From Chloroflexota bacterium (lineage in GTDB: Bacteria; Chloroflexota; Anaerolineae; B4-G1; SLSP01), in contig JAAZNO010000592.1 in the NCBI GenBank assembly GCA_012798275.1, positions 1 through 11,328 on the forward strand: DNA of 11,328 nt, read 5' to 3'. Shown here in pieces: positions 1-11,328 of this stretch. Positions within the stretch are counted from its first letter, which is position 1. Every line of letters begins with the position of its first letter. The translations under genes and the position numbers were made by a program. Under the pieces are notes generated by a model that ran no database searches, had not been told where the DNA came from, and saw only the letters and a program-made list of their open reading frames with translations.

Positions 1-1
1 C

Positions 2-769
2 TGGGCTTTCGGGCCGGATTGCGGCATTGACAATCTGGACAAGATCGGCGAGCTGGTGACGCTCTGCAACGCCTACGGGCTTGACACGATCGAGACCGGC
101 GTGACGCTGGGTGTAGCGATGGATTCGGGGCTCCTCCCCTTTGGCGACGTCGAGGGCGCGATCGCCTTGCTGCACGAGATGGGCCAGGGCACGCCGCTGG
201 GACGCCTGCTGGGCAGCGGGGCAGCCACGGTTGGCAAGGTCTACGGGAATCCGCACGTGCCCACCGTCAAAGGACAGGCCATGCCGGCGTATGAGCCGCG
301 CGCCGTCAAAGGGATCGGCGTGACCTACGCCACCACCACGATGGGCGCGGATCACACCGCGGGCTACACCATCGCCCCCGAAATCCTGAGCGTGGGCGGC
401 AAGTCCGATCCGCTGGTTGCGGAGAGCGCCAAAGCCGACCTGAGCCGCGCCTTCCAGAGCACGACCGCGCTGATTGACTCCAGCGGGCACTGCCTCTTCA
501 TCGCCTTCGCCATTCTGGACATCCCTTCCGGTTTCCAGGGCATGGTAGACGAGGTCAATGCCGTGCTGGGCACGTCCATGAGCAGCGATGAAGCCGTGGC
601 CATGGGCGCGGAGATCCTCAAACGCGAGCGCGCCTTCAATGAGGCCGCGGGCTTCACCCGCCAGGATGACCGGTTGCCGGAATTCATGAAATACGAGCCG
701 CTGCCGCCGCACAACGTCACCAACGATCTCCCCGATTCAGTCTTCGACTCCGTGTTCGGCCAGCTGTAA
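2..769 (+). CDS. Aldehyde ferredoxin oxidoreductase, C-terminal part (5' end outside window)
   Basis: The 255 visible codons are the C-terminal part of an AOR-family enzyme, which oxidises aldehydes to acids using a tungsten (rarely molybdenum) bis-pterin cofactor and one [4Fe-4S] cluster. Seen: an AFGPDCGIDNLD segment at the window edge, then CNAYGLDTIETG, then MGADHTAGY, then IDSSGHCLF. These match the conserved pterin-binding blocks of the family. The Cys at 491-493 in the DxxGxC motif corresponds to the fourth cluster ligand of Pyrococcus furiosus AOR. The CxxCxxxC cluster motif expected further upstream lies outside the window. The reading frame is open to base 2 and stops at TAA 767-769, followed by a terminator hairpin. 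Two MoaD-like genes lie downstream, in line with a pterin cofactor enzyme. The family assignment is firm; the substrate cannot be told. Confidence 0.93.
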   Translation, partial: WAFGPDCGIDNLDKIGELVTLCNAYGLDTIETGVTLGVAMDSGLLPFGDVEGAIALLHEMGQGTPLGRLLGSGAATVGKVYGNPHVPTVKGQAMPAYEPRAVKGIGVTYATTTMGADHTAGYTIAPEILSVGGKSDPLVAESAKADLSRAFQSTTALIDSSGHCLFIAFAILDIPSGFQGMVDEVNAVLGTSMSSDEAVAMGAEILKRERAFNEAAGFTRQDDRLPEFMKYEPLPPHNVTNDLPDSVFDSVFGQL

Positions 770-783
770 GCGACTGACTCCAG

Positions 784-823
784 ACCCACGCCGGAAATCT
801 TGCTCCGGCGTGGGTTGGTTTCT
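784..823 (+). terminator. Intrinsic terminator after the oxidoreductase gene
   Basis: A perfect 12-bp stem, ACCCACGCCGGA (784-795) and its complement (804-815), with an 8-nt loop, begins 14 bases after the stop codon and is followed by TGGTTTCT. The T-tract is interrupted, so termination may be imperfect, but position and stem strength fit the end of the oxidoreductase transcript. Confidence 0.75.
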
Positions 824-833
824 CCACGAGCTA

Positions 834-842
834 TGCTATGAT
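834..842 (+). promoter_or_regulatory. Possible extended -10 promoter element
   Basis: TGC followed by TATGAT matches the extended -10 pattern (TGn plus 5 of 6 to TATAAT). A weak -35 (TTGGTT, 815-820) sits 16 bases upstream, in the terminator tail. It could start transcription toward the MoaD-like genes, but the leader would be about 440 nt. No better promoter was seen closer to them. This is sequence pattern only. Confidence 0.25.
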
Positions 843-986
843 ATCGCCAGGAGTGTAGAGTTGACATGTTCCTGCGGCACACCGCCGCGGATGAAAATGT
901 AATGTGAGGTCATAGTTCAGCCCGGCGTCAGGTAGCTCGACGGCGATGGATGAACCTTTGCGAGCTGTAGCTTTTGCCCTTCCCCC

Positions 987-1028
987 CACCCCCTCCCCAA
1001 CAGTGCATGCGCCGTTGGGGAGGGGGTG
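987..1028. repeat. Palindrome 1: 15-bp perfect inverted repeat
   Basis: CACCCCCTCCCCAAC (987-1001) pairs perfectly with 1014-1028 around a 12-nt loop. The left arm is pyrimidine-rich and the right arm purine-rich, and an A8 run follows at 1029-1036. No T-tract follows on either strand, so it is not a standard terminator. It resembles REP-type intergenic palindromes. Confidence 0.8.
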
Positions 1029-1039
1029 AAAAAAAATAA

Positions 1040-1078
1040 GGGATTTTGCAGGCGGGCTACGCCCGCCTGCAAAATCCC
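1040..1078. repeat. Palindrome 2: 18-bp perfect inverted repeat
   Basis: GGGATTTTGCAGGCGGGC (1040-1057) pairs perfectly with 1061-1078 around the 3-nt loop TAC. It is flanked by A-runs on both sides (1029-1036 and 1081-1088). Read on the minus strand it has T-runs on both sides, so it could act as a minus-strand terminator, but no minus-strand gene ends here. Confidence 0.85.
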
Positions 1079-1090
1079 ACAAAAAAAAGT

Positions 1091-1127
1091 TCCCTTTCCT
1101 CCCACGCTTTGCGCGGGAGGAAAGGGA
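1091..1127. repeat. Palindrome 3: 13-bp inverted repeat
   Basis: TCCCTTTCCTCCC (1091-1103) pairs perfectly with 1115-1127. Inside, one A/C mismatch is followed by CGC/GCG closing a TTT loop. As in palindrome 1, one arm is all pyrimidine and the other all purine. It lies 12 bases after palindrome 2. Confidence 0.8.
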
Positions 1128-1209
1128 CAGGGGACAAGCATTGATTCTCAATCTTCAGCAATTGCCAGGAAATCTTGCGTTTTTTAGTCAGTGGCTGAAC
1201 AGTTACCGT

Positions 1210-1255
1210 GTGAGTCGTGAGCCGTGACTGCGACAACTCTCTACTCACGGCTCAC
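1210..1255. repeat. Heptamer repeats forming an 11-bp inverted repeat upstream of the MoaD-like gene
   Basis: Three degenerate heptamers in a row (GTGAGTC, GTGAGCC, GTGACTG; 1210-1230) face complementary heptamers (CTCACGG, CTCACTG; 1244-1257). The perfect core GTGAGCCGTGA (1217-1227) pairs with 1245-1255 around a 17-nt loop, ending 36 bases before the next start codon. It may be a leader hairpin or simple repeat drift. Confidence 0.65.
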
Positions 1256-1291
1256 TGCTCTCTATTTTCTGAGGAGGATGGGAGTCAGCCG

Positions 1292-1534
1292 ATGAAAGTA
1301 AAAGTGAAGCTTTTTGCGACCCTGCAGCGCTACGCGCCGGAAGGACAATTTGCGGGTGAGCCGTTTGAGATGGAACTGCCCGAAGGAAGTCCCATCACCG
1401 CCGTCATTGAACGGCTTGCCATCCGTCCCCACGAGGTCAAAGTCACCTTCGTAAATGGCAAGGCCCGCGCCGAGGTCTACCGCCTGAAGGAGGGCGACGA
1501 GGTCGGTATTTTCCCTCCCGTAGGAGGCGGCTAG
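1292..1534 (+). CDS. MoaD-like sulfur-carrier protein
   Basis: An 80-residue beta-grasp protein of the MoaD/ThiS family. MoaD is the small subunit of molybdopterin synthase: its C-terminal Gly-Gly is adenylated and thiocarboxylated, then donates sulfur to the pterin precursor in the cytoplasm. Seen: the N-terminal strand MKVKVKLFATLQRYAP, the turn VTFVNGKARAEVYRLKEGDEVGIFPPV, and the tail PPVGGG ending at the stop. The ATG at 1292 was chosen because GGAG (1281-1284) lies 7 bases upstream; an ATG at 1278 abuts its Shine-Dalgarno and is out of frame. The gene lies downstream of a tungsten-type oxidoreductase and one base before a second beta-grasp gene, so a role in that enzyme's cofactor is likely. 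Whether it is the general MoaD or an AOR-dedicated copy cannot be told. Confidence 0.88.
   Translation: MKVKVKLFATLQRYAPEGQFAGEPFEMELPEGSPITAVIERLAIRPHEVKVTFVNGKARAEVYRLKEGDEVGIFPPVGGG
1522..1527 (+). promoter_or_regulatory. Ribosome binding site inside the Gly-Gly tail codons
   Basis: AGGAGG lies 8 bases before the ATG at 1536. The same bases encode the Val-Gly end of the preceding MoaD-like protein, so the essential glycine tail and the next gene's translation signal share sequence. This suggests translational coupling of the two genes. Confidence 0.8.
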
Positions 1535-1535
1535 C

Positions 1536-1913
1536 ATGGAAGACATCACCCTGGACGTGTGGCTCTACGGGCCGCTGGCGCGTTACGGCGGCAGCGACGA
1601 CAACATCTTCGCGCAAGTGGCCATCACGCTGCCCGCGGGCAGCGTGATGCGGGACTTGCTCGCGCGCCTGCAATTGCCTGCAGAGGAGCGCGGGATCACT
1701 TTCATCAACGGCAATCTGAGCGCCATGCCCGGCTTACAACCGGACCTGGAGCACCCCCTCAGTCATGGGGATCGGGTGGCGTTATTCCATCTCAAAAGCA
1801 TGTGGCCCTTCCAGTACCGGCATGACGTCGCCGCCATTCCAGAGTTCAGAGAGTCGCTCGAAGCGCGCGAGGATCACGGCTTGCGCTCGCGGTATGACAC
1901 GGTCGTCAAGTAA
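1536..1913 (+). CDS. Second MoaD/ThiS-like protein with C-terminal extension and no Gly-Gly tail
   Basis: A 125-residue protein. Roughly residues 5-85 look like a beta-grasp domain: LDVWLYGPLARYGG at the start, a middle ITLPAGSVMRDLLARLQLPAEERGITFINGN, and LSHGDRVALFHL where MoaD normally reads GDEVAIFPPVAGG. Instead of the Gly-Gly end it continues with MWPFQYRHDVAAIPEFRE and a charged tail rich in Arg, Glu and Asp (about 40 residues). Without the terminal glycines it cannot be a normal sulfur carrier. It starts one base after the first MoaD-like gene, so the two are surely co-translated. It may be a structural partner, or a beta-grasp protein specific to the aldehyde oxidoreductase system. 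Domain assignment is by pattern; function is inferred from context. Confidence 0.8.
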   Translation: MEDITLDVWLYGPLARYGGSDDNIFAQVAITLPAGSVMRDLLARLQLPAEERGITFINGNLSAMPGLQPDLEHPLSHGDRVALFHLKSMWPFQYRHDVAAIPEFRESLEAREDHGLRSRYDTVVK

Positions 1914-1939
1914 ATGTGCGTACGGAGATCGCAACGCCG

Positions 1940-3610
1940 CTACGGTGCACCACGGCCAGCGCGGTTGAAACCCTCCAGATCCACAAACTGCCGCAAGGCG
2001 CCACCCTGCAGGGCCCACAGGCCCGTCGCAAAGGCGCGGATGAAGTAGCGATCGTGTACCACCGCCAGCACCGTCCCCTCAAAAGCCGTCATAGCGCGCT
2101 CAAATTGCGTGCGGCTGGGGATGTCCAGGTGATTGATCGGTTCGTCGAGCAGCAGGAAGTTGCAGCCCATCGCCACCATCCGGGCCAGGGTCAGCCGGGC
2201 GCGCTCCCCATAGCTCAACGCTCGGACCGGGATGAAGACGTCGTCGCCGGAGAACAGGTAATAGTGCAGGAAGGAGCGCACGTCGGTGTCCGACAGCGCC
2301 GCGACAGCGCGGACGACCTCGAAGGGGGTGCTGTCCGGGTCTAACGTTTCCTGCTCCTGAGCGTAGTAGCCCACCTGAACGTGAGTCCCCAGGCGCGCGC
2401 GCCCCTCCAGCGGGGGGAGCTGCCCCATGATCACTTTGAGCAGGGTGGTCTTGCCGGCGCCGTTGGGACCGATCAGCGCCACGCGCTCTCCCGCGCCCAA
2501 AATGGCGTCCACGTTGCGGAAAAGCGGGATGCCGCCGTAGCCGGCAGCGAGGTTTTCCAGCACGAGCACCTCACGGCCACTCGTCGGCGCTTCCGTGAAT
2601 TCGAGCTTCATCCGCCAGGTGAGTTTGGGTTTCTCCACACGCTCGTCGCTTTCCATGTAGCGCTCGAGCTTGCGTTCCCGGGATTTGGCCTTCTGCGCCA
2701 CCTTTTTGGCGTAACGGCGGATGGTGAAGTCGTGCGGTTTGGTGGTGAGCTCCACACTCAGCGCCTGCATCGCCGTGCGGTGGATGTCCCCCTGAATCCG
2801 TCGGATTTCTGCCTGCTCGTCTCGCCATTGCGCCAGCTGTTTCTCCCGCTGGCGTTCCCACGTTTCGAGGTAGGCGCTGTAATTGCCCACATACTCGGTG
2901 AGGGTGTGCGTCTCAGGATCGAGATCGAGAATGCGGGTGACGGTGTGATCCAGGAAGGCGCGGTCATGAGAGACGAGCAACGCCGCCCCGGCGTAGGCGC
3001 GCAACCACGCCTCGAGCCACTCCAGCGCTTCGATGTCCAGGTGATTGGTTGGCTCGTCAAGCAACACGATCTCTGGCCGGTGGAGTAACAGGCGCGCCAA
3101 TCCCAGCCGCGTCTTCTGTCCCCCGCTGAGGATTTCCAGCGGCGTGTCGAGGCTAACGTGCGCCAATCCCAATCCCGCGAGCACCGCCGCAGCTTCGTGT
3201 TCCGCCGGCGCGATCGCCGCCAGAGCCTCCAGGCGCGCCAGGGCCTCGCTGTAAGCTTCGAGCGCTTGGGGCTCTGGCTCGCGCGTGAAGAGCGTCTCAG
3301 CCAGCGCTGCGACCTGCGCCTCCGCTTCGGCCAGCGCCTCCTCGCCCATCTGAAGGAACTGCGCCACGGTCTGCGCCCCGCGATGGGCGAAGCCCTGCTC
3401 CAAAAACCCCACCCGCACCTCCGGCGGCGTGAATTGCACCCCTCCCGCATCCGGCGCCAGCTGTCCCGTGATGATGCGCAGCAACGTCGTCTTGCCGGAG
3501 CCGTTGGGGCCGATCAGCCCCACCCGCTCACCGGGGTTCAACACAAAGGAAACGTCCTTGAGAATGAGCTCGCTTCCGTAATGTTGGGTGATATTCGATA
3601 CCTTGAGCAT
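1940..3610 (-). CDS. ABC-F family ATPase (ribosome-associated)
   Basis: A 556-residue protein with two ABC ATPase domains and no membrane segments, typical of ABC-F factors that bind the ribosomal E site and act in translation or antibiotic protection. Domain 1: Walker A GPNGSGKTT (34-42), signature LSGGQ (161-165), Walker B IVLLDE (181-186), switch His215. Domain 2: Walker A GPNGAGKTT (381-389), signature LSYGE (465-469), Walker B FLLLDE (485-490), switch His519. Between them (about 246-335) is a charged helical linker, the part that reaches toward P-site tRNA in this family. The second DEPTNHLD motif reads DEPINHLD; catalytic Glu490 is kept. The ATG at 3610 has GAGG five bases upstream; an in-frame ATG at 3712 would overlap the leader hairpin. 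It ends 26 bases from the convergent beta-grasp gene. Regulation is probably by the upstream leader. Subfamily and substrate, including any resistance role, cannot be told. Confidence 0.93.
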   Translation of the reverse strand: MLKVSNITQHYGSELILKDVSFVLNPGERVGLIGPNGSGKTTLLRIITGQLAPDAGGVQFTPPEVRVGFLEQGFAHRGAQTVAQFLQMGEEALAEAEAQVAALAETLFTREPEPQALEAYSEALARLEALAAIAPAEHEAAAVLAGLGLAHVSLDTPLEILSGGQKTRLGLARLLLHRPEIVLLDEPTNHLDIEALEWLEAWLRAYAGAALLVSHDRAFLDHTVTRILDLDPETHTLTEYVGNYSAYLETWERQREKQLAQWRDEQAEIRRIQGDIHRTAMQALSVELTTKPHDFTIRRYAKKVAQKAKSRERKLERYMESDERVEKPKLTWRMKLEFTEAPTSGREVLVLENLAAGYGGIPLFRNVDAILGAGERVALIGPNGAGKTTLLKVIMGQLPPLEGRARLGTHVQVGYYAQEQETLDPDSTPFEVVRAVAALSDTDVRSFLHYYLFSGDDVFIPVRALSYGERARLTLARMVAMGCNFLLLDEPINHLDIPSRTQFERAMTAFEGTVLAVVHDRYFIRAFATGLWALQGGALRQFVDLEGFNRAGRGAP

Positions 3611-3640
3611 AAAGACCTCGTTATTTTCTCTCGTCGCTGC

Positions 3641-3671
3641 GTGGCTGTTTAACGTTATGCAAAACAGCCAC
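3641..3671 (-). other. Second leader hairpin before the ABC-F gene
   Basis: GTGGCTGTTT (3641-3650) pairs perfectly with 3662-3671 (10 bp, 11-nt loop), about 30 bases before the ABC-F start. No T-tract follows, so it is not a terminator. It lies between the leader terminator and the gene's ribosome binding site and could shape read-through RNA or translation start. Confidence 0.65.
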
Positions 3672-3710
3672 AAGAAATCCTGGTCGCGCCTTTGCGATAC
3701 GCCAGACAAC

Positions 3711-3743
3711 AAAAAAGCCGTGGGGCGGCAGCTCCCACGGCTT
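3711..3743 (-). terminator. Leader terminator (putative attenuator) upstream of ABC-F
   Basis: On the minus strand AAGCCGTGGG, a 9-nt loop and CCCACGGCTT form a perfect 10-bp stem ending in TTTTTT (the T-tract shares two bases with the stem), then GTTGTC. It is a textbook intrinsic terminator, placed after a promoter and short leader ORF and about 100 bases before the ABC-F start. Without the promoter at 3863-3890 it could be read as the end of the prolyl isomerase transcript, and it may serve both. Confidence 0.85.
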
Positions 3744-3766
3744 ATAGCGGCAATGCTTGCAGCGAT

Positions 3767-3823
3767 TCAGGCAGCAGGAATCACAACACGCCCAAAGGGG
3801 GTCTGTGATGCGCTGTCAATCAT
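3767..3823 (-). CDS. Putative leader peptide of the ABC-F gene (18 residues)
   Basis: A short ORF encoding MIDSASQTPFGRVVIPAA. It starts with ATG, has a strong AAAGGAG ribosome binding site 9 bases upstream, and ends with TGA 23 bases before the terminator stem. It lies fully inside the leader RNA that would start near 3856. Short translated ORFs before terminators are known regulators of ABC-F resistance genes, where drug-stalled ribosomes change leader folding. Within the ORF, ATCACA and TGTGAT (3804-3809 and 3780-3785) can pair, and GATTC/GAATC pair around its stop codon. I do not recognise the peptide, and no clear antiterminator was found, so the mechanism is inference from layout. Confidence 0.6.
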   Translation of the reverse strand: MIDSASQTPFGRVVIPAA

Positions 3824-3832
3824 CCCTGTGCT

Positions 3833-3839
3833 CTCCTTT
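3833..3839 (-). promoter_or_regulatory. Ribosome binding site of the leader peptide
   Basis: AAAGGAG on the minus strand with 9 bases to the ATG at 3823. It is at least as strong as the binding sites of the neighbouring full-length genes, which argues that the short ORF is really translated. Confidence 0.7.
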
Positions 3840-3862
3840 ACTGAATATGCCAACGTACTTTA

Positions 3863-3890
3863 ACTATATCACAGAGCCACGGATTGACAA
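3863..3890 (-). promoter_or_regulatory. Sigma70-type promoter for the ABC-F leader
   Basis: On the minus strand TTGTCA (3885-3890) and TATAGT (3863-3868) are 16 bases apart, each matching its consensus at 5 of 6 positions. Transcription would begin near 3856, about 33 bases before the leader peptide start. It lies just downstream of the prolyl isomerase stop codon, so the ABC-F gene has its own promoter. Confidence 0.7.
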
Positions 3891-3904
3891 GGGGAAATTC
3901 GACC

Positions 3905-4327
3905 TCACGGGTGGATCTCCAGCAGCTCCACTTCAAAGATCAAGGTGGCGTTCGGCGGGATCACATCGCCTGAGCCGCTCGCGCCGTACCCCAATTCCGG
4001 CGGGATGATGAGCTTGCGCACGCCGCCGACGCGCATCGTGCTGACCCCCTCGTCCCACCCGGCAATCACACTCCCCGTGCCGATGAGGAACTCGAAGGGC
4101 TCGCCGCGATCTACGGAGCTGTCGAATTTCGTGCCGTCCTCCAACCAGCCGGTGTAATGTACAACGACGGTATCACCAAACTTGGGGAAGTTGCCGTCGC
4201 CAACTTTGATGTCCACGTACTGCAAGCCCGTCCTCGTGGTCACCACTTCCTCAGTGTCCTTGCCGCCACAGGCGGTCAGCAACAGCGCCAGAATCAACAT
4301 TCCCAGTAACCCGATTTTTCCACGCAT
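3905..4327 (-). CDS. FKBP-type peptidyl-prolyl isomerase, lipoprotein
   Basis: A 140-residue secreted FKBP. It catalyses cis-trans isomerisation of X-Pro bonds and probably helps fold exported proteins at the outer face of the membrane. Seen: a lipoprotein signal peptide (charged MRGK, then about 13 hydrophobic residues) with lipobox LTAC and Cys20; a short linker; then one full FKBP domain (about 34-140) with HYTGWLEDGTKFDSS, VIAGWDEG and LGYG. The pocket residues Tyr58, Asp69, Trp91 and Tyr114 are present. The ATG at 4327 was chosen because AAAGGAG lies 7 bases upstream and the signal peptide begins there; an upstream in-frame ATG at 4384 would put a charged stretch before it. It lies 99 bases downstream of the secreted-protein gene, with its own possible promoter and a palindrome in the gap. 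Confidence 0.93.
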   Translation of the reverse strand: MRGKIGLLGMLILALLLTACGGKDTEEVVTTRTGLQYVDIKVGDGNFPKFGDTVVVHYTGWLEDGTKFDSSVDRGEPFEFLIGTGSVIAGWDEGVSTMRVGGVRKLIIPPELGYGASGSGDVIPPNATLIFEVELLEIHP

Positions 4328-4363
4328 GAATGATCTCCTTTCTCTTGAGAATGCCCCTGGATT

Positions 4364-4394
4364 TTCACGTGAGCACGTGAACACGACTTTAGCA
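4364..4394 (-). promoter_or_regulatory. Tandem CACGTG palindrome by a possible extended -10
   Basis: TTCACGTG-AG-CACGTGAA (4364-4381) is a perfect 8-bp inverted repeat with a 2-base spacer. Just upstream on the minus strand, TGC plus TAAAGT (4386-4394) could be an extended -10 for the prolyl isomerase gene, which would put the palindrome at the transcription start, a common place for a repressor site. The promoter part is weak (4 of 6); the palindrome is clear. Confidence 0.45.
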
Positions 4395-4426
4395 TGGAAT
4401 CCCCTTTCGGCAAACGCCGCCGGCGT

Positions 4427-4984
4427 TCACGGCGCGACAGGCAGGTCCAGAGGCAACGGTGTGAGGCGGCGCAATTCCACCCTCATGCCGCGGCCAACGG
4501 TGTCCCAACGCACCGCGGTCGGATAATCCACTTCCGCCACGAAGACCGGCTGATACTCCCCGGTGTGCACGCGGCGAAGCCACTCCTCGGCCACGCGCTG
4601 GCTCATCGGCGTGTGGCGGTTAAAGAGCATGAAGCCAATCCCACCGTCGGCCAGACCGGCGCAATCAACGGCATACGCGGTTTCCCAGGGGTAAGGCGCG
4701 CCGTTCTCGTCCACGCCGGCGCGCCGCATCTCGAACCAGCTGCCGATATCACGGCAATCGAGCGTTGCAAAGTAGACCTCGGCCTGCGGCAACGGGGTGG
4801 GCAACGTGAAAGCCGTTCGGCCCGCCTGCCGCACCTGGATGGTCGCCTCCATGCGGCCCGGTCCGTACTGGCTGGCGATCCCGGCCAGTATCGGAGCGTC
4901 TGCACCAGTTCCCGGCTCCCAATCACCGGCTCCGGTGAGAAGAGTTGCTGTCATGGTCAACAGCAACGCGCTTTTCATCAACAT
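4427..4984 (-). CDS. Secreted protein, possible double-psi beta-barrel (RlpA/expansin-like)
   Basis: A 185-residue protein of unproven function. It has a signal peptide (MLMKSALLLTMTATLLTGAG) without a lipobox Cys, so it is probably released by signal peptidase I. The mature part resembles small double-psi barrel proteins: GIASQYGPG near residues 35-43 (compare the ASxYG opening of RlpA-type domains), LDCRDIGSWFEMRR (75-88), AVDCAGLADGGIGF (105-118) and AEVDYPTAVRWDTVGRG (150-166). Cys77 and Cys108 may form a disulfide, and Asp residues follow where such barrels place them. The ATG at 4984 has GGGAGG 8 bases upstream; a second Met two codons later is possible. It has its own strong promoter and a 5' hairpin. 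The fold is inferred from faint motif likeness only. Confidence 0.65.
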   Translation of the reverse strand: MLMKSALLLTMTATLLTGAGDWEPGTGADAPILAGIASQYGPGRMEATIQVRQAGRTAFTLPTPLPQAEVYFATLDCRDIGSWFEMRRAGVDENGAPYPWETAYAVDCAGLADGGIGFMLFNRHTPMSQRVAEEWLRRVHTGEYQPVFVAEVDYPTAVRWDTVGRGMRVELRRLTPLPLDLPVAP

Positions 4985-5005
4985 TGTTCTCTGCCTCCCA
5001 ATAGA

Positions 5006-5032
5006 ATCGCCGGATCCATTTGATCCGGCGAT
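5006..5032 (-). other. Hairpin at the 5' end of the secreted-protein mRNA
   Basis: ATCGCCGGATC (5006-5016) pairs perfectly with 5022-5032 (11 bp, 5-nt loop). It would sit about 10 bases after the predicted transcription start near 5042 and five bases before the ribosome binding site. There is no T-tract. It could protect the mRNA 5' end or modulate translation. Confidence 0.65.
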
Positions 5033-5048
5033 GACTAACAAGGCAGGA

Positions 5049-5076
5049 ATTGTAAAAGAAACCGGAATTCTGTCAA
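5049..5076 (-). promoter_or_regulatory. Sigma70-type promoter of the secreted-protein gene
   Basis: On the minus strand TTGACA (5071-5076, perfect -35) and TACAAT (5049-5054, 5 of 6) are 16 bases apart in an AT-rich patch. The predicted start near 5042 gives a leader of about 58 bases. It is the best promoter match in the window. Confidence 0.8.
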
Positions 5077-5120
5077 GGGGCATTTTCTATTGCATAAAAC
5101 ATCTCTGAATTTAGCATAAT

Positions 5121-5279
5121 TCACAAAAGATCACCGCAGTAGATTTCACGCTCTTCCGCGCGGCACATGTGGAGCTCCCCCTGCTTCAACCATGAAGTGA
5201 CGCGCCCCCTCACTGATGGGCTCGTCGGATCTTCAGCTCTGTCGTCGGCGCCGGAAATCGGCCCCTGCAGCAGGAGCTC
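5121..5279 (-). other. Open in-frame stretch after trmO, with a possible 15-codon ORF
   Basis: After the TGA of trmO the same frame stays open for 52 more codons to a second TGA at 5121-5123. The end of this translation is varied and not low-complexity (VTSWLKQGELHMCRAEERE, then IYCGDLL). Inside it, ATG at 5168 follows GGGGGAG at 6 bases and would give MCRAEEREIYCGDLL. It may be a tiny gene, the relic of a longer trmO or of another gene, or chance. I recognise no family. Confidence 0.3.
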
Positions 5280-5774
5280 TCAGCGGCTGAACCTGTCATC
5301 GGCGCTGGGAAGCGGCAAATGGCCGCGTCGCTGTTCGTACCATCCCAGCCGTTCCACAGTGCAGCTGTCGAAATCCGGAATGTAGGGCTTGATGTCCAGC
5401 AGCGGCGTGCCGTCCAGCATGTCCAGATTTTCCAGGTAGAGGACGCACCCCGCGCGCTCCAGCAGACGCACGACCGACAGGCCCAGCGGATTAGGGCGCG
5501 CCGGGGCGCGGGTGGCAAAGACGCCGCGCAGCTCGGTATCCAGAAACGGCGTCACCCGCAGGCGAGGCGGCGCCGCGCGATGGAGATGGTACAGCAGGAT
5601 CAGGTGCGAGAAGCCTTCCAGGTCCTGCAACGCCTCCTCGAACTCCGGGTAGAGTTCCGCCGTGCCGCGCGTCCCAACGGCGCACGCCGCCTGGATGGGC
5701 ATCCCGACAGGCTCCTGAAACGGCGTATGCAAGACGCCAATGGGTCGGTAGGTAATCGGTAAGAGAGGTTCCAT
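5280..5774 (-). CDS. trmO: tRNA (N6-threonylcarbamoyladenosine37-N6)-methyltransferase, TrmO/TsaA family
   Basis: A 164-residue protein of the TrmO (TsaA, VirR-like) family, which methylates t6A at position 37 of certain tRNAs with S-adenosylmethionine to refine decoding. Seen: YRPIGVLHTPF (residues 9-19), GMPIQ, the core LEGFSHLILLYHLHRA, the signature GVFATRAPARPNPLGLSVVRLL, and the family's closing strand LDMLDGTPLLDIKPYIPDFD. It covers the single catalytic domain and ends soon after, so it matches the short bacterial/archaeal form without the extra C-terminal domain of the E. coli protein. The ATG at 5774 has GAGGAG 7 bases upstream; an in-frame ATG at 5801 has no good site. The metallo-beta-lactamase-fold gene lies 86 bases upstream on the same strand, so the two may be co-transcribed. 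Some TsaA homologues may have other substrates. Confidence 0.88.
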   Translation of the reverse strand: MEPLLPITYRPIGVLHTPFQEPVGMPIQAACAVGTRGTAELYPEFEEALQDLEGFSHLILLYHLHRAAPPRLRVTPFLDTELRGVFATRAPARPNPLGLSVVRLLERAGCVLYLENLDMLDGTPLLDIKPYIPDFDSCTVERLGWYEQRRGHLPLPSADDRFSR

Positions 5775-5860
5775 GGAATTGCTCCTCAGGCGCGCGGCCA
5801 TGTGATCTCAAAGCCGGCGCAGGCGTGATCGCGCTCGCCTTGCACGAACGATCGTGAAGG

Positions 5861-6706
5861 TCACGCCCCAACGTCCCATTCCAGCGCCGTCCCTGCCGGA
5901 CACGGACGCACCACCTCCCCGCCCAGCGCCTGGCGAAGGGTGTACATTGCCTCATCGCCCGAGCAGTGATTGAGGTAAAGTCGCCGCAGGGTCCCCCATC
6001 CCGCCAGCGTCTGGACGACGATCCCCAGCGTGGCAGCATCCGCGCTGGTCAGATGGGTACCGCCTGCCACGGCCACGATGGGCCGTTGAAAAACCCGCTG
6101 CACATGCGCCAGCGTGTTGAGCAATCCGGCATGACAACAGCCACACAGCACGATCAACCCCGCAGAACCTTCCACGACCAGCGAGAGGTCATCGCGGTAA
6201 GGATCGGGGGCATAACCAGCGCCGGCGCGAATTTCCTGCCGGGGCACATAGCCACCGGGATAGGGACGCTCCGTAATCGCGCCGGTCGTCCACACGCCGG
6301 GGAGCACCTGCTGCGGCGCATCGTCCAGATGCAGGGCAAAACGCGCAGCAAGCCAGGCATGATCCACCGACAGACCAATGGCGCGCCGCTCCCCCGTGCT
6401 CTGTGAGAAACGCTCGCGCAACAGGTCGGCGTTGGCGTACAGGGGCAACCCCGGCGCAAGACGCTCAGCCAACGCGGGCAAGCCGCCGGTGTGATCGTAG
6501 TGGGCATGGCTCAGCGCCAGCGCTGCCAGCGTCCCGGCGTCCAGCTGCAACGTGTCGAGATTGTGCAGCAAGACTGTGCCGCTCTGCCCGGTGTCCAGCA
6601 GCACAGAGCCCTCCGCCATAGCAATCCAAAAAGACAGACCATGCTCGCCCCAAAGGTGGCTGCTGTACCTCACGGAGTTATCTACAAGGCAAGTGATAGC
6701 AGGCAT
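5861..6706 (-). CDS. Metallo-beta-lactamase-fold hydrolase, dihydropterin-phosphate-synthase-like (MJ0301 type)
   Basis: A 281-residue MBL-fold protein. Seen: an N-terminal LVDNSV segment, SFWI and LLDTGQS, the metal motif HAHYDH (67-72), CGCCHAG with His192, GGTH (215-218) and NHCSG (246-250). CGCCHAG plus the late NHC(S/T)G block are typical of the subgroup annotated as 7,8-dihydropterin-6-yl-methyl-4-(beta-D-ribofuranosyl)aminobenzene 5'-phosphate synthases or MJ0301-like hydrolases; outside methanogens the substrate is unknown. The start at 6706 has GGAGG only 3 bases upstream, which is close, so the start is less certain. It lies 53 bases after the GNAT gene and 86 bases before trmO. A pterin link to the upstream tungsten enzyme is tempting but unproven, as the two are about 5 kb apart on opposite strands. 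Confidence 0.83.
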   Translation of the reverse strand: MPAITCLVDNSVRYSSHLWGEHGLSFWIAMAEGSVLLDTGQSGTVLLHNLDTLQLDAGTLAALALSHAHYDHTGGLPALAERLAPGLPLYANADLLRERFSQSTGERRAIGLSVDHAWLAARFALHLDDAPQQVLPGVWTTGAITERPYPGGYVPRQEIRAGAGYAPDPYRDDLSLVVEGSAGLIVLCGCCHAGLLNTLAHVQRVFQRPIVAVAGGTHLTSADAATLGIVVQTLAGWGTLRRLYLNHCSGDEAMYTLRQALGGEVVRPCPAGTALEWDVGA

Positions 6707-6759
6707 TGTCCTCCAATCATCCGCATCCCCCACTGAAGGCCGGATCAAGACCTCACGTT

Positions 6760-7350
6760 TCAGCGCGCCAGGCACCGTTGTAGCCAGTCTTCCTCAGTGG
6801 ACCGCGGATAGCGCGCGTGAAATTCCTCCACCGTCATGCCGAAAACGAGCAGGTCGAAGTGCCGCCCCTGCGAGAAGACTACCCGTCGAATGCGCCCCTC
6901 CTGCACGAAGCCCAACCGCTCATGGAATCGCGCCGATCTCTCGTTGTAGGCGTAGACCTCAGCAGTGGCTTTCTGATAGCGGAGCTCATCGAAGAAATAG
7001 CGCAACACGAGGAGGACCGCTTCCGTCGCGTAGCCCCGTCCACGGAAGGCAGGAGCGACGGAGACGCCGTACTTGAAGCTCCCCACCCGACGGTCGCAGC
7101 TGTGGGTGTTGATCACGCCGACGAGCCGGCCCTCGGCGTTCTCGATGGCGAAGAAGAATTCGTCGTTCCTGGACTCCTCGGTAGCGCGCCTTTCCGCCCA
7201 CTGTCGGGCTTGCGCCAGCGACCCGGCGGGCCACACCCACTCCACCATGCGGGCCGTCTCCGTCTCCGCGCTGTCCCAGGCGTAGAAGGTCTCCGCATCT
7301 TCCGGCTCGATGCCCCGCAGCCGAACGTTCACGCCGCGCCAGAGATTCAT
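6760..7350 (-). CDS. GNAT-family N-acetyltransferase (RimJ/RimL-like)
   Basis: A 196-residue acetyltransferase that would move an acetyl group from acetyl-CoA to an amine, perhaps a protein N-terminus or a small molecule. Seen: the opening VNVRLRGIEPEDAETFYAW typical of the RimJ/RimL branch; FFFAIENAEGRLVGVI (beta strands); the acetyl-CoA motif VSVAPAFRGRGYATEAV with RGRGYA at 103-108; and NERSARFHERLGFVQEGRIRR, the motif B region with the usual ERLGF. The ATG at 7350 follows the TAG of the glucosidase gene by one base. Its binding site GGAG lies in the Val-Glu codons of that gene, so it is translationally coupled to it. The substrate cannot be told; sugar-operon membership is by position only. 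Confidence 0.88.
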   Translation of the reverse strand: MNLWRGVNVRLRGIEPEDAETFYAWDSAETETARMVEWVWPAGSLAQARQWAERRATEESRNDEFFFAIENAEGRLVGVINTHSCDRRVGSFKYGVSVAPAFRGRGYATEAVLLVLRYFFDELRYQKATAEVYAYNERSARFHERLGFVQEGRIRRVVFSQGRHFDLLVFGMTVEEFHARYPRSTEEDWLQRCLAR

Positions 7351-7351
7351 C

Positions 7352-9070
7352 CTAGCGCTCCACGGCTGCGAGGTAGATCTCGAAGGGCGCGAGCTCCAGC
7401 GCCCGCAGATCTCCGACCTCCCGCCGCCCCGCGCTGGAAAAGAGCAGCCGCGGCGCCCAAAGCTGCTCAAAGGTCAGCGTGTGCGCGCGAGTGGAAAAAT
7501 TGAGCACCACCAGACAGGTCTGCCCTTCCACCGCGCGCAGGAAGCAGAAACAATCGGGGTGCTCCTCCAGCAGCGGCGTGTAATCGCCCGCAATGAGGGC
7601 GGGGGTCCGCTTGCGCAGCGCGAGCAGCTGCTTATAGAAGGCGAGCATCGAGGCGGGATCGTTCTGCTGCCCGGCCACGTTGATGCCGGCGGCATAATTG
7701 GGATTCACCGGCAGCCAGGTCGTCACGCCCTCGGGACTGAAGCCGGCGTTAGGCGCGTCAGCCCACTGCAGCGGGGTGCGGCAGCGGTCGCGGGTGTGCT
7801 GGAAGGCTATCGCGGCTGCCTCCGCCTCGGGAAGGCCCATCCTCACCGCCAGCTCGTATTGGCGCAGAGCCAGAGTGTCGCGCAGCTGGGCAATCTCGGT
7901 GAAGACGGCGTCCGTCATGCCGATTTCCTCGCCGTTGTAGAGGAAAGGCGTCCCCCGCAGAGTGAGCATGAGCGCCAGAGCCAGGCGGGCGAGCTCGTCG
8001 TCGTGTTCACCGTCCCCATAACGGCTTTTGACGCGGGGCGAATCGTGATTGCCCAATGTGTTGCAGGGCCAGGCGCCCTCCGGCAGCGCCGCCAAGCGCT
8101 CCGCCTGATTGTTGCGAATGTGCGCCGGCGTGAGGAGACCTTCGATGCGCATCAGCGGAAAGTTGAAGACCAGGTGCAGCTCGTCGTCGCCATTCCCATG
8201 ATAAGCCAGGTCGCTATCTTCCGCCACGAGCACGCGATCGGGGTATTCGTCCACCACACGCCGCAGCTCCTTCATCAGCGAGTGCATCTCCTCGGCCCGA
8301 TCCACCTGATGGGCAAAGAGCAGTTCCCACTTCTCGCTCACGGCCTGACGCTCCTCGGCCGTCTGCGCTGCCTGCCCCAGCTGATACAGGTCGAGCAGCG
8401 TGAATCCTGCCTCGTGATCGGGCATAGCGGGGTCCTCGAAGATGGTGCCAATCGCGTCGAGACGGAATCCATCCACGCCCATGTCGAGCCAGAAGCGCAC
8501 GGCGTCCCACATGGCCGCCTTCACTTCGGGATTGCGCCAGTTGAGATCGGGCTGCTCTTTGAGGAAAAAGTGATAGTACCACTGATCGGTCGTTGGATCG
8601 TACTCCCACGCCGGGCCGGTGAAACTCGACTCCCAGTTATTGGGTGGAAGTTTCTCGCCGTCGGGGCCGATTTTCCCATCGCGCCAGATGTACCAATCGC
8701 GTTTGGGATTGTCACGGCTGGATTTCGATTCCAGGAACCAGCGGTGTTGATCCGAGGTGTGATTGAAGACCATATCCAGGATCACGCGGATGCCCCGCTT
8801 GTGGGCCGCCTCGAGGAACAGGCGGAAGTCATCCAGCGTGCCGTATTCGGGAGCCACGTCGCAGTAATCCGCCACGTCATAGCCGCAATCGGCCTGCGGC
8901 GAGGGGTAGTGCGGCGACAGCCACACGCCTTCGACGCCCAATTCCGCCAGGTAATCCAGCTTTTCGAGCATCCCCCGCAGGTCGCCGATCCCGTCGCCGT
9001 TGCCGTCGGCGAAGCTGCGCGGGTAAATCTGATAAAAAACCGCTTTCTGCCACCATTTGAGATTGTCCAC
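7352..9070 (-). CDS. GH13 alpha-glucosidase (oligo-1,6-glucosidase/maltase type)
   Basis: A 572-residue cytoplasmic GH13 enzyme without a signal peptide, releasing glucose from short alpha-glucosides. Seen: WWQKAVFYQIYPRSF opening; a calcium loop DGNGDGIGD (22-30); region I DMVFNH (99-104); region V QPDLNW (173-178), the hallmark of the oligo-1,6-glucosidase group; region II GFRLDA with nucleophile Asp205; acid/base Glu284 in LVAEDSD; and region IV NHD with Asp343. In characterised family members Val after the nucleophile goes with alpha-1,6 preference and Ala or Thr with alpha-1,4. Here it is Ala, hinting at maltose-type substrates. The GTG at 9070 was chosen because AGGAG lies 8 bases upstream; the in-frame ATG at 9097 has no comparable site. 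It is overall like the GH13 gene at the right edge, so the two are paralogues. Confidence 0.93.
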   Translation of the reverse strand: MDNLKWWQKAVFYQIYPRSFADGNGDGIGDLRGMLEKLDYLAELGVEGVWLSPHYPSPQADCGYDVADYCDVAPEYGTLDDFRLFLEAAHKRGIRVILDMVFNHTSDQHRWFLESKSSRDNPKRDWYIWRDGKIGPDGEKLPPNNWESSFTGPAWEYDPTTDQWYYHFFLKEQPDLNWRNPEVKAAMWDAVRFWLDMGVDGFRLDAIGTIFEDPAMPDHEAGFTLLDLYQLGQAAQTAEERQAVSEKWELLFAHQVDRAEEMHSLMKELRRVVDEYPDRVLVAEDSDLAYHGNGDDELHLVFNFPLMRIEGLLTPAHIRNNQAERLAALPEGAWPCNTLGNHDSPRVKSRYGDGEHDDELARLALALMLTLRGTPFLYNGEEIGMTDAVFTEIAQLRDTLALRQYELAVRMGLPEAEAAAIAFQHTRDRCRTPLQWADAPNAGFSPEGVTTWLPVNPNYAAGINVAGQQNDPASMLAFYKQLLALRKRTPALIAGDYTPLLEEHPDCFCFLRAVEGQTCLVVLNFSTRAHTLTFEQLWAPRLLFSSAGRREVGDLRALELAPFEIYLAAVER

Positions 9071-9115
9071 AACGTCAACTCCTGTTATGATGATCATTTA
9101 CCCCAAACACACGAA

Positions 9116-9155
9116 GGCGCCAAGATTTTTTCTCGCGTTCTGGTATCTTGGCGCC
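9116..9155. repeat. 11-bp inverted repeat between GH130 and GH13 genes
   Basis: GGCGCCAAGAT (9116-9126) pairs perfectly with 9145-9155 around an 18-nt loop, with a few more pairs possible outside after mismatches (9109-9112 with 9159-9162). On the minus strand it follows the GH130 stop by 38 bases and is followed only by TTCGTGTGTTTGG, a poor T-tract. It may be a weak terminator or mRNA processing site that tunes expression within the operon, or a dispersed intergenic palindrome. Confidence 0.75.
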
Positions 9156-9193
9156 GTGGTGTCTTGACCTGATAAGCTTCCAACAAGACTCCC

Positions 9194-10114
9194 TCACTCC
9201 CCATGGAGCACAAAATCCACCAGTTCCGCCAGGGGGCATGTCGCCAGACCGATCACGTGATCGCCGCCGCCGTAGTACACGTAGACGGTGTCTCCTACGA
9301 CGATGTTAGCGCACGAGAAGACGACGTTGGGCACGTCGCCGCGCAGCTCCCAGAGCTCCTCAGGCCAGAAGATGGAGGCCTTGGGACGCCGCACAACCCG
9401 CGTGGGATCGTCAAGATCGAGCAGCGCCACGCCGATGTGGTAGATGTGCCGCTGATCGTAGCCGTGGTAGAACATCAGCCAACCGTGCTCCGTCTCGATG
9501 GGAACGCCGTTGCCGCCGACGCTTTGGTGATCCCAGGTGTTCTCCGGGCGCGGAGCGAAAACCGGCGCCATGTCGGCTTCCCGCCAGGTGAGGAGGTCAT
9601 CGCTGTAGGCCAGCCAGATGGTGGGCCAACGGCGATGGAAGGCGACGTAACGTCCACCAATCCGCCGCGGGAACAGGGCGTGATCCTTGTTATCCTCGCC
9701 GCGCACGAGCGGCCCGAGCCGCTCCCATATAATGCCGTTCTGACTACGCGCAACCATGGGCAGGATGCCACCCCCGGCGTGCGTCGGCTGCGCCCCCAAG
9801 TACTCCCGGCCATACGCCGTGTAGGTCATGAGGAACTCACCGTCGAGCTTCACCACACGCGGGTCTTCCAGGCCCCGCGAATCGGTCCCGTCGTGCGGCC
9901 CCAGCACCGGACGCCGCAGCCGGTTCCAGTGCACGCCGTCCGCGCTCACGGCATACCCGATGCGGCTGATCCAATCCAGCCCCTGCGCGCGATACCACAT
10001 GTGAAACAGGCCGTTGTCATAGACGACGGCGGGATTGAAGACATTGTACGTCTCCCAATCCGAGGTCGGATCGGGCAGCATCACCGGGTTCTGGGGATAG
10101 CGCGTGAGCTGCAT
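9194..10114 (-). CDS. GH130 family enzyme (beta-mannoside phosphorylase or beta-1,2-mannosidase)
   Basis: A 306-residue five-bladed-propeller enzyme of GH130, a family that phosphorolyses beta-1,4- or beta-1,2-mannosides or hydrolyses beta-1,2-mannosides. Seen: [35 protein letters not shown] with the expected catalytic Asp84, [24 protein letters not shown] (141-164), [19 protein letters not shown], and [15 protein letters not shown] near the end. The length is usual for the family and there is no signal peptide, so it acts in the cytoplasm. The ATG at 10114 was preferred because GAGGAG lies 7 bases upstream; an ATG two codons earlier would overlap the previous stop but leave only one base of spacing. 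It lies 2 bases after the nucleotidyltransferase gene. Phosphorylase versus hydrolase cannot be decided by eye. Confidence 0.9.
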
Positions 10115-10116
10115 TC

Positions 10117-10545
10117 TCATACTCCTCGCTCGCGTAAATCGGCAAAGAAGGCCGCCTGCAATTGGTCGTGAATGGGCCGATAATCGAAGTAACGCATGCG
10201 GGTCTCGACCTCAAAAGCTACCCGCACTTCCTCATCCCGCGCGTAGAGCAGCACCCCCTCCGTGACCACCTTGCCGCGAAAGATCAACGGCGCGTCGTTC
10301 AGGATGCGCACATCCGCGTTGGGAATCTGACAGTTTTCAGCCAGCCAGGCCTCAAGCCCCAGAAGCAGGTCCAGCCGTTCCCTGGGGGCCGGCAAAGTTG
10401 CCAGCACCACCCCTATATCCACATCGCTGAAGGGCGTGGCGTAGCCGGTAACGACCGAGCCGTAGAGATAAGCGAGGTCTACCGGCAAGGGCGCCAAAAG
10501 CGCCGGCAGAGCCTGCCGAAGTCGGGTGACAAGATCTTCAGCCAT
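10117..10545 (-). CDS. MNT-type nucleotidyltransferase domain protein (MntA-like)
   Basis: A 142-residue protein with the minimal nucleotidyltransferase core: [20 protein letters not shown] with Gly29-Ser30 and Asp41/Asp43, matching GSX10DXD exactly, and a C-terminal helix set of the MntA type ([25 protein letters not shown]). MntA antitoxins of the type VII HEPN/MNT systems AMPylate their HEPN toxin. Other family members of this size are uncharacterised. No HEPN gene (RX4-6H) lies beside it: the flanking genes are GH13 and GH130 enzymes, 6 bases upstream and 2 bases downstream. Translation starts at ATG 10545 with GAGG overlapping the previous stop region, so it is coupled to the upstream glucosidase. 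The partner, if any, may be outside the window, or the protein has another role such as modifying an operon enzyme. Confidence 0.85.
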
Positions 10546-10551
10546 CCCCCC

Positions 10552-11328
10552 TCACAGCGCGATGATCACACCCTCATGCGCCCGCAGCTGCAGCGCCCCG
10601 AGGGTCACCGGTTCCTCCCGATCCAGATGCGTGGAAAGCAGGATCTGCCCCGCCTCTGCTTCTGCGAGGGCGAGAGTACGCGGCTCAGCCGCAAAGTTGA
10701 GGGCGATGAGATACCGGCTGCCGTCTGCTTCCCGCACGTAGGCGTAGCAGTCGGACGGCACGCCAGCATCCACCGGGCGATACCTGCCGCCGAACAAGGC
10801 CGGCGTCTCCTGGCGCAGCGCCAGCAATTGATGATAGAGCGTCAAGATGGAAGTGGGATCCTGCGACATCACGGCGACGTTGCGCGTCTTGTAGTCGGCC
10901 GTCACCGGCAGCCACGGCTCCACCTCCGGCGGGCAGAAACCCGCGTTCGGGGAAGCGTCCCACTGCATCGGCGTGCGGCAGACGTCACGGCTGCGCTCCG
11001 GCCCCAGGTTGCGCCCCTGCGGATCCTGGATCTTCTCCGGCGGAATGGGCACATCGGGCAAGCCAATCTCGTCGCCGTAGTAGAGCGTCGGCGTCCCCCG
11101 CAGCGTGAGCAGCAACATCGCCGCCACGCGCGCCTGCGCTTCCCCGCCAAAGCGGGTCACCAACCTCATGCGATCGTGATTGCCCAACACGTAATTGGGC
11201 CAGGCGAAGTCCGGCAGGGTCGTCTCCAACGCATCCACCACTTCCCGCAACGCCTGCGCGTCCCAGGTCATGCTGCTGAGCCCCATCCCATCCATGAGGC
11301 GGAAGTTGAAGGGCAGCTGCAGCTCCTC
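10552..11328 (-). CDS. GH13 alpha-glucosidase, C-terminal part (5' end outside window)
   Basis: 258 codons of a GH13 enzyme, open to the right window edge. Seen: ELQLPFNFRLM at the edge; region IV VLGNHDRMRLVTRFGG with the transition-state Asp in NHD; LLLTLRGTPTLYYGDEIGL; VPIPPEKIQDPQGRN; SRDVCRTPMQWDASPNAGF; SILTLYHQLLALRQETPAL; then a C-terminal beta domain (LIALNF to GVIIAL). The pattern is that of maltase-type alpha-glucosidases, close in layout to the second copy at 7352-9070, though the CRTP(M/L)QW blocks and loops differ, so it is a diverged paralogue and not a recent duplication. The catalytic nucleophile and acid lie outside the window. The stop TGA is 6 bases before the nucleotidyltransferase start. 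The cut at the edge is due to the window, not a broken gene. Confidence 0.92.
   Translation of the reverse strand, partial: EELQLPFNFRLMDGMGLSSMTWDAQALREVVDALETTLPDFAWPNYVLGNHDRMRLVTRFGGEAQARVAAMLLLTLRGTPTLYYGDEIGLPDVPIPPEKIQDPQGRNLGPERSRDVCRTPMQWDASPNAGFCPPEVEPWLPVTADYKTRNVAVMSQDPTSILTLYHQLLALRQETPALFGGRYRPVDAGVPSDCYAYVREADGSRYLIALNFAAEPRTLALAEAEAGQILLSTHLDREEPVTLGALQLRAHEGVIIAL

Follow-up and report, generated by a model that had tools for sequence, protein, structure and literature searches.

The window analysed here is the whole 11,328-nucleotide stretch formed by positions 1 to 11,328 (forward strand) of contig JAAZNO010000592.1 from a Chloroflexota bacterium (GCA_012798275.1), whose genome comprises 3.06 Mb in 724 contigs. 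On its minus strand, between a gene for an FKBP-type isomerase and a gene for an ABC-F ATPase, lies a leader for which an earlier note had listed a promoter, a Shine-Dalgarno (SD) sequence, an 18-codon open reading frame (ORF), a 10-bp terminator with T6 and then the ABC-F gene. All these elements were found again, together with a stem enclosing the start codon of the upstream ORF (uORF), which was absent from that account. As judged by sequence comparison, this is a real attenuator-like leader with one mechanistic step unproven, and it probably acts as a ribosome-responsive transcription attenuator for the ABC-F gene. The features of the locus are the following:

3905-4327, minus strand: FKBP-type isomerase gene, the upstream neighbour of the leader.
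3863..3890, minus strand: sigma-70-type promoter, with −35 box TTGTCA (3890-3885) and −10 box TATAGT (3868-3863), each matching at 5/6 positions.
3833..3836, minus strand: SD sequence GGAG of the leader ORF, also present in the aligned leaders.
3822..3828, minus strand: region 1, CAGGGAU, the 5′ arm of the start-codon stem, including the A and U of AUG.
3767..3823, minus strand: leader ORF (the uORF), 18 codons, MIDSASQTPFGRVVIPAA and stop, with its ATG at 3823-3821; the start is kept in relatives, the peptide is not.
3789..3793, minus strand: GGGCG motif, with GGGC near the same place in 11/18 leaders.
3775..3781, minus strand: region 2, AUUCCUG, the 3′ arm of the start-codon stem, within uORF codons 15-17.
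3711..3741, minus strand: intrinsic terminator (regions 3 and 4), GCCGUGGG-A-GC / GC-CCCACGGC followed by U6, where termination is predicted from sequence and fold.
1940..3610, minus strand: gene for an ABC-F ATPase of 556 aa with its ATG at 3610, the putative regulated gene, matched by profile NF000355.

The promoter has a spacer of 16 and a TG preceding the −10 box, and the transcript start is predicted at about 3856. The start-codon stem of the window is a 7-bp helix including one G-U (3828-3822 with 3781-3775), and the terminator hairpin (3741-3717) reads GCCGTGGG-A-GC-[TGCC]-GC-CCCACGGC, with 10 bp, one bulged A and the T6 at 3716-3711. The fold had a z-score of −2.58.

To begin with recurrence, an orthologue of the ABC-F gene was found at E 1e−150 in 102 genomes out of an evenly drawn class sample of 396, and 89 upstream regions of 340 bases each were considered, representing most, not all, of the orthologue matches. 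A uniform detector identified a uORF plus terminator in 32 of these regions, compared to 1/267 dinucleotide shuffles, and a terminator alone in 54 (17/267 shuffles); nine of these 267, belonging to three N-containing regions, were left unshuffled and counted as none. The corresponding figures for the second ABC-F paralogue were 9/18 and 13/18 (shuffles 1/54 and 3/54), and those for the third paralogue, taken as a control, were 0/18 and 3/18 (shuffles 0/54 and 4/54). It should be noted that the recurrence rows are kin and hence not independent events. Moreover, L109 and L110 failed the detector although their leader is visible by eye, and on the window itself a different GTG ORF was ranked first, the ORF beginning with MIDS having come from the comparison of orthologues. 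In that comparison of 19 sequences (the window and 18 orthologues, leaving out L019-L021, which had no leader or contained Ns), the SD sequence, the start, a short ORF and a GCCG(T/C)GG terminator were all present in 14, and no such uORF was found in L093-L096. In the remaining one of the 19 (G017:C212, L011/L088), the terminator was kept and the uORF and stem were replaced by other sequence, possibly a natural case in which the sensor part was lost. A promoter with at least 9/12 matching positions preceded 14/18 leaders of the window's type (the window being one of them), where mononucleotide shuffles predict 1.3.

In the sister genome, the leader (3708-3856) was identical at 148/149 positions, the uORF at 57/57 (its limits there being one base off those given above) and the terminator at 30/30, compared with 45/48 for the promoter stretch, 402/423 for the FKBP gene and 628/673 upstream. 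The identity was 94.6% over 1283-3378, the stretch holding most of the ABC-F gene, and about 95% in neighbouring genes. Furthermore, a covariance model built from six leaders (R1) had matches in 88/396 class genomes at E 0.01, many of the weaker ones being taken as terminators alone. The earlier assignment to an attenuator-type leader is thus backed by the recurrence before orthologues, the sister-genome identity and the pairing described next.

What recurs among the leaders is a stem and not a peptide. The uORF peptide was common only to members of the genus (MIDSASQTPFGRVVIPAA, MIDSGSRTLIGRLVIPVAV and MIDSGSRSPFGRFVIPVAV), and the ORFs found beyond it included MIRLNTVFVLGNVHL, MIVMLHALSYCGRMASLFH, MTDNTGFKHVQRCASLHG, MPGRVAAGQRL and MGDSAA, among others; overall, the uORFs range from 6 (MGDSAA) to 28 codons. 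In the recurring stem, CAGGGAUG, which holds the start codon, pairs with CAUCCCUG some 40 bases further 3′; in 12/18 leaders, the start codon was covered by a helix of 6-10 bp with its partner at +38 to +44. Own arms paired better than arms swapped between leaders (p 0.0004 for 16 leaders and 0.005 for 11 lineage representatives), and the mean z of the pairing of regions 1 and 2 (1:2) against shuffles was −1.75 in the 18 leaders. In A8, a covariance-model alignment of 20 leaders, 97.1% of the cells paired, and double changes affected 4/8 stem pairs and 2/8 terminator pairs, amounting to 14 cells (five of them in the stem), a number reached by none of 500 shuffles. The stem changes included UAGG/CCUA in L196, CAGGAAUG/CAUUCCUG in L188 and AGAGAUG/CAUCUCU in L194 and L198. 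Moreover, the stem persisted where the ORF stops before region 2 (MGDSAA, MPGRVAAGQRL). The comparison across relatives proposed in the earlier note therefore had a divided outcome: the start codon, the SD sequence, the terminator and the stem (12/18) persist, and the peptide, whose conservation had been put forward as a test, does not. As worded there, a mechanism of drug-stalled ribosomes on the peptide does not hold, given that this peptide is restricted to the genus and is elsewhere different or only six codons long. If the present reading is true, selection would keep a buried start codon rather than a peptide.

Sequence comparison thus supports an arrangement of promoter, uORF start within a recurring stem, terminator and ABC-F gene, from which the following mechanism may be proposed. 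By default, the nascent RNA would form the start-codon stem (1:2) and then the terminator (3:4), and transcription would stop before the ABC-F gene. A ribosome held on the uORF start or on the first codons would cover region 1, so that the freed region 2, with the adjacent GGGCG, could form pairs with the rising strand of the terminator hairpin and transcription would continue into the ABC-F gene. The stem would accordingly be a putative anti-antiterminator and region 2 the antiterminator strand, GGGCG being a possible partner of the 3′ side of the terminator. The sensor is likely to be a ribosome positioned on the start codon or close to it, and the signal would be a drug or stress halting ribosomes at or just past initiation.

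Taken alone, the window was unremarkable, with five promoter-like sites (2.3 expected) and four terminator-like sites (8.0 expected), and the case therefore rests on recurrence and comparison. Several results weigh against the proposed mechanism. A total of 57/89 orthologue regions failed the detector, and R1 matches were rare outside the class (7/301 phylum genomes at E 0.001, the window's own genome among them). A clear start-codon helix was missing from 5/18 leaders (L013, L016, L054, L014 and L151), and alignment A8 was itself fitted to the structure. Among its five double-change cells in the stem, two come from leaders of ABC exporters (L194 and L198), one from L188, with no ABC-F gene found within 1.5 kb downstream, and one from L213, a leader without a clear helix, for which reason its GUG start with matching partner base was dropped as evidence. 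Confidence in the mechanism is slightly lowered because of L188, L198 and the fraction of double changes contributed by exporter leaders. Of the same tenor, for the pairing of regions 2 and 3 (2:3) within the window's leader group, were the mean z against shuffles (−0.38), the overlap with region 2 (7/18 vs. 6.5 expected), the swapped-pair p-values of 0.43 and 0.46 without the distant L151 and L177, and the window's own 2:3 duplex, which was equalled by 63.5% of shuffles. In equilibrium folding with a ribosome mask, the terminator of the window stayed at 1.00 at every position.

The antiterminator thus lacks statistical support in the window's own leader group and is the weak step of the mechanism. 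A first permutation of 2:3 that included L151 and L177 gave p 0.014 (18 leaders) and 0.041 (13 representatives); with the same two included, region 2 against the whole terminator gave swapped-pair p-values of 0.001 and 0.002, its shuffle z ranging from −1.7 to +0.6 (10 of the 18 leaders). Candidate duplexes look attractive by eye (GCAUCC/GGGUGC, GCACC/GGUGC). In a multi-window scan, mean pairing to the 5′ arm and loop of the terminator was strongest at +28 to +54, at −10.6 kcal/mol compared with −6.5 to −8 elsewhere; p-values there were 0.03 to 0.12, and two terminator-placed windows gave p 0.005 to 0.04, uncorrected for the number of windows. For the window's group, the 2:3 antiterminator is suggestive at most. 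A ribosome mask at codon 5 lowered the terminator in L151 (0.01), L017 (0.11), L116 (0.67) and L015 (0.85), and mask folding was rejected as proof of switching, the window terminator being unaffected. Regarding the read-through upon stalling proposed in the earlier note, the attenuator layout stands, and the antiterminator required for read-through cannot be demonstrated in the leader of the window itself.

On the other hand, related genomes contain other leaders for which a mutually exclusive antiterminator was supported. Reading some of the R1 class matches yielded a heterogeneous group of 18 further leaders, set B. As it was found with the type A model, its start stem and terminator were partly selected for, the 2:3 pairing being outside that model. 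A promoter was present in 17/18 (0.7 expected), the mean z was −1.85 for 1:2 and −2.52 for 2:3, the two partners of region 2 overlapped in 15/18 (7.2 expected), and the swapped-pair p-values were 0.003 for 1:2 and <1e−4 for 2:3 (16/18, dropping two near-copies). Set B shows the full scheme of 1:2, 2:3 and 3:4. In its core, named type B, UCGCAGUGCGCC complements two segments, the start region and the rising strand of the terminator hairpin, and RSAP lies close to the end of the uORF in 17/30 type B loci. In L254, L255, L256 and L261, the same type B RNA is read in another frame. Across 31 aligned type B leaders (30 distinct), 83.2% of the antiterminator cells paired (81.6% in shuffles; 1/500 reached the value), double changes occurred in 3/11 pairs (reached by 63/500 shuffles) and seven cells (0/500), the covariation score was reached by 10/500 shuffles, and further pair types were fewer than in 490/500 shuffles. 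A type B model of seven leaders (R2) matched 31/48 order genomes at E 0.1, including the sources of most of the seven, and at that threshold none of its matches among the 48 lay in the window's own genome. The type B loci of other genomes are L249-L278, L197 and L200-L222; such leaders precede genes for GNAT acetyltransferases, ABC ATPases, a HAD hydrolase and ABC exporters.

By Pfam, 10 proteins downstream of R1 and R2 matches comprised three GNAT proteins, three ABC ATPases, one HAD protein and three ABC exporters. Tentatively, and with slightly less than even confidence, the Anaerolineae may possess many rapidly diversifying attenuators that sequester a start codon and share one RNA logic despite unrelated peptides, lying before ABC-F, ABC exporter or ATPase, GNAT and HAD genes as a translation-stress regulon.

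Other explanations of the window's leader were weighed against the same data. An attenuator of the same class could instead depend on arrest by the nascent peptide in the presence of a drug, the RNA stem being secondary. A G-R pair near codons 10-13 indeed recurs in the genus and in some other lineages (FGRVVIP, IGRLVIP, VGRxAP, CGRMASL), and by eye the R is retained through AGG rather than CGN in L009 and L010. However, as judged by eye, GGGC occurs across leaders in either of two frames (the other one in L004 and L108) and, in L116, outside the ORF, and a constraint at the RNA level therefore explains the G-R recurrence; as the peptides otherwise differ and the ORFs go down to six codons, arrest by the peptide is considered unlikely. 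Somewhat less likely still, the promoter and terminator could serve an independent small gene or a small RNA, with expression of the ABC-F gene left to leaky read-through or another promoter. Every element of a tiny transcription unit is present, and L188 (G020:C55:13423-13565), which closely duplicates the leader and has a compensated stem, is the case already mentioned with no ABC-F gene found nearby; but by eye the unit accompanies the ABC-F gene and not the upstream FKBP gene, its peptide is not conserved, and analogous units precede other ABC-F, ABC and acetyltransferase genes.

That RNA elements are kept better than the peptide would also suit a ligand-sensing riboswitch or a protein-bound leader with an incidental ORF. 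Against this, what is conserved is a small core around a start codon and its SD sequence, and no Rfam family, riboswitch and T-box families included, matched the leader by covariance model at gathering score (a single match, at E 0.87, was below it), so that this explanation appears improbable. Finally, the near-expected counts of the window-level scans are what a chance juxtaposition of promoter, ORF and terminator would give, an account made very improbable by the recurrence, the sister-genome identity and the pairing. The ribosome-responsive attenuator with a start-codon stem is consequently the reading compared below with known systems.

Alternative 1:2, 2:3 and 3:4 folds are those of the trp, his and ilv amino-acid leader peptides; unlike these, the window uORF has no run of codons for one amino acid, and the target is an ABC-F gene. 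In the streptococcal msrD leader, arrest is reportedly peptide-dependent, and the window type differs from it, since its peptide is not conserved. The likeness is that msrD is also an ABC-F gene under regulation, responding to macrolides (PMC10314930), and ilvB provides an attenuator of the amino-acid type (PMC11109978). The closest parallels are Bacillus subtilis vmlR, from a different phylum, and Clostridioides difficile cplR with its relatives. In vmlR, the uORF lies within the first stem, an anti-antiterminator, with the SD sequence just 5′ and an intrinsic terminator before the ABC-F gene, and antibiotic-stalled ribosomes were shown experimentally to allow the antiterminator (PMC9226507); the same switching of the fold by ribosome arrest on the uORF is proposed here. 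In contrast to the 6-28 codons of the window type, the vmlR uORF has three (MIN); vmlR further carries two hairpins, SL-2 for pausing and SL-4 for hiding an SD sequence (PMC9226507). The same attenuator logic was shown experimentally for cplR, where a 5′ hairpin sequesters the uORF ahead of an intrinsic terminator and an antiterminator fold is a feature; leaders of this type need little context, with uORFs MR[I/M] in cplR and relatives, MK[L/Q] in VmlR2 and MAGN in LsaA (PMC10201436). The cplR terminator also hides the SD sequence of the gene (PMC10201436), unlike that of the window, which ends 100 bases before it. Features shared with the vmlR/cplR kind are the short ORF with an SD sequence, the terminator between uORF and gene, and the start within a stem.

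The transcription attenuation of ABC-F genes under uORF control is therefore known, and the variant features here are a long uORF without fixed sequence, a start-codon stem that forms the conserved core, and placement ahead of several gene families. The suggestion in the earlier note of an undescribed regulatory leader stands for the phylum, as no ABC-F attenuator in Chloroflexota was found in the accessible portions of the open-licence literature, and not for the kind. In those portions, the string 'Chloroflex' is absent from PMC10201436, PMC9226507, PMC10219788, PMC11109978 and PMC2965389; PMC9413887, PMC6497799 and PMC4959651 name the phylum with unrelated content; what PMC3766115 assigns to Chloroflexi are T-boxes and riboswitches rather than ABC-F leaders; and PMC4833913 terms its own Chloroflexi leader signal insignificant. 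A figure legend of PMC11264731 includes Chloroflexota among the species in a tree of erm genes that have or lack leader peptides, and drug-response uORFs have therefore been screened in this phylum at least for erm. If the proposed mechanism is true, ribosome-sensing attenuation of ABC-F genes would extend to Chloroflexota, the leader would be expected to respond to drugs or stress that act on initiation or on the first steps of elongation, with specific base pairs to test, and, together with the other leader types, a stress regulon findable by sequence alone would be suggested.

Regarding the ABC-F protein, NF000355 (ribosomal protection-like ABC-F) was matched at 427 bits over a cutoff of 380, yet the closest solved chains were YbiT, YheS, EttA and Uup, followed by ExpZ (which we take to be VmlR) and PoxtA; the protein is a candidate, not an established, resistance factor. 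Its closest relatives among named assemblies were in Anaerolineae and Chloroflexota metagenome assemblies.

Further leaders were observed before other ABC-F genes. In the window's genome, a separate leader precedes the second ABC-F paralogue (G000:C22:3313-5320, L229; relatives L230-L245). A GV[VI] uORF was found in 8/9 detected relatives (MNITFLWGQSVVSLPGVVSF..., MIKIAAGKSSLAIYGVICF...; for example ..LPGVVSF.., ..MRGVVAF.. and ..IAGVVAS..), the ninth, L238, being different, and by eye a GCGCACC/GGUGCGCC hairpin often lies near the stop codon, followed by a terminator; this leader may be a peptide-dependent attenuator. Another group, type D, lies upstream of ABC-F orthologues (L131, of which only the later part is present, L135, L136, L137, L141, L147, L150, L152, L157 and L162). 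Its uORF has 7-8 codons (MTDTFAA, MTDRFAA, MTNTITV, MIELIIA) and is followed by a recurring RNA, CCCGCUUCCCAC..GUGGGAAACCACCUG..CAGGUUCGUGGCGGGACCACGCGCCUGC, and by a terminator whose GCAGGCGC complements GCGCCUGC. One type D example folded at z −4.21, and the four Rfam matches of this type at E up to 0.5 were all under the gathering score.

Within the window, a perfect 10-bp inverted repeat without a T-run, GTGGCTGTTT/AAACAGCCAC, lies at 3641-3671 (minus strand), just 5′ of the ABC-F ribosome-binding site; it was not noticed in the upstream regions of the relatives compared. Finally, two adjacent, very strong hairpins with T-runs, of 18 and 17 pairs, are found at 1040-1127 (minus strand).

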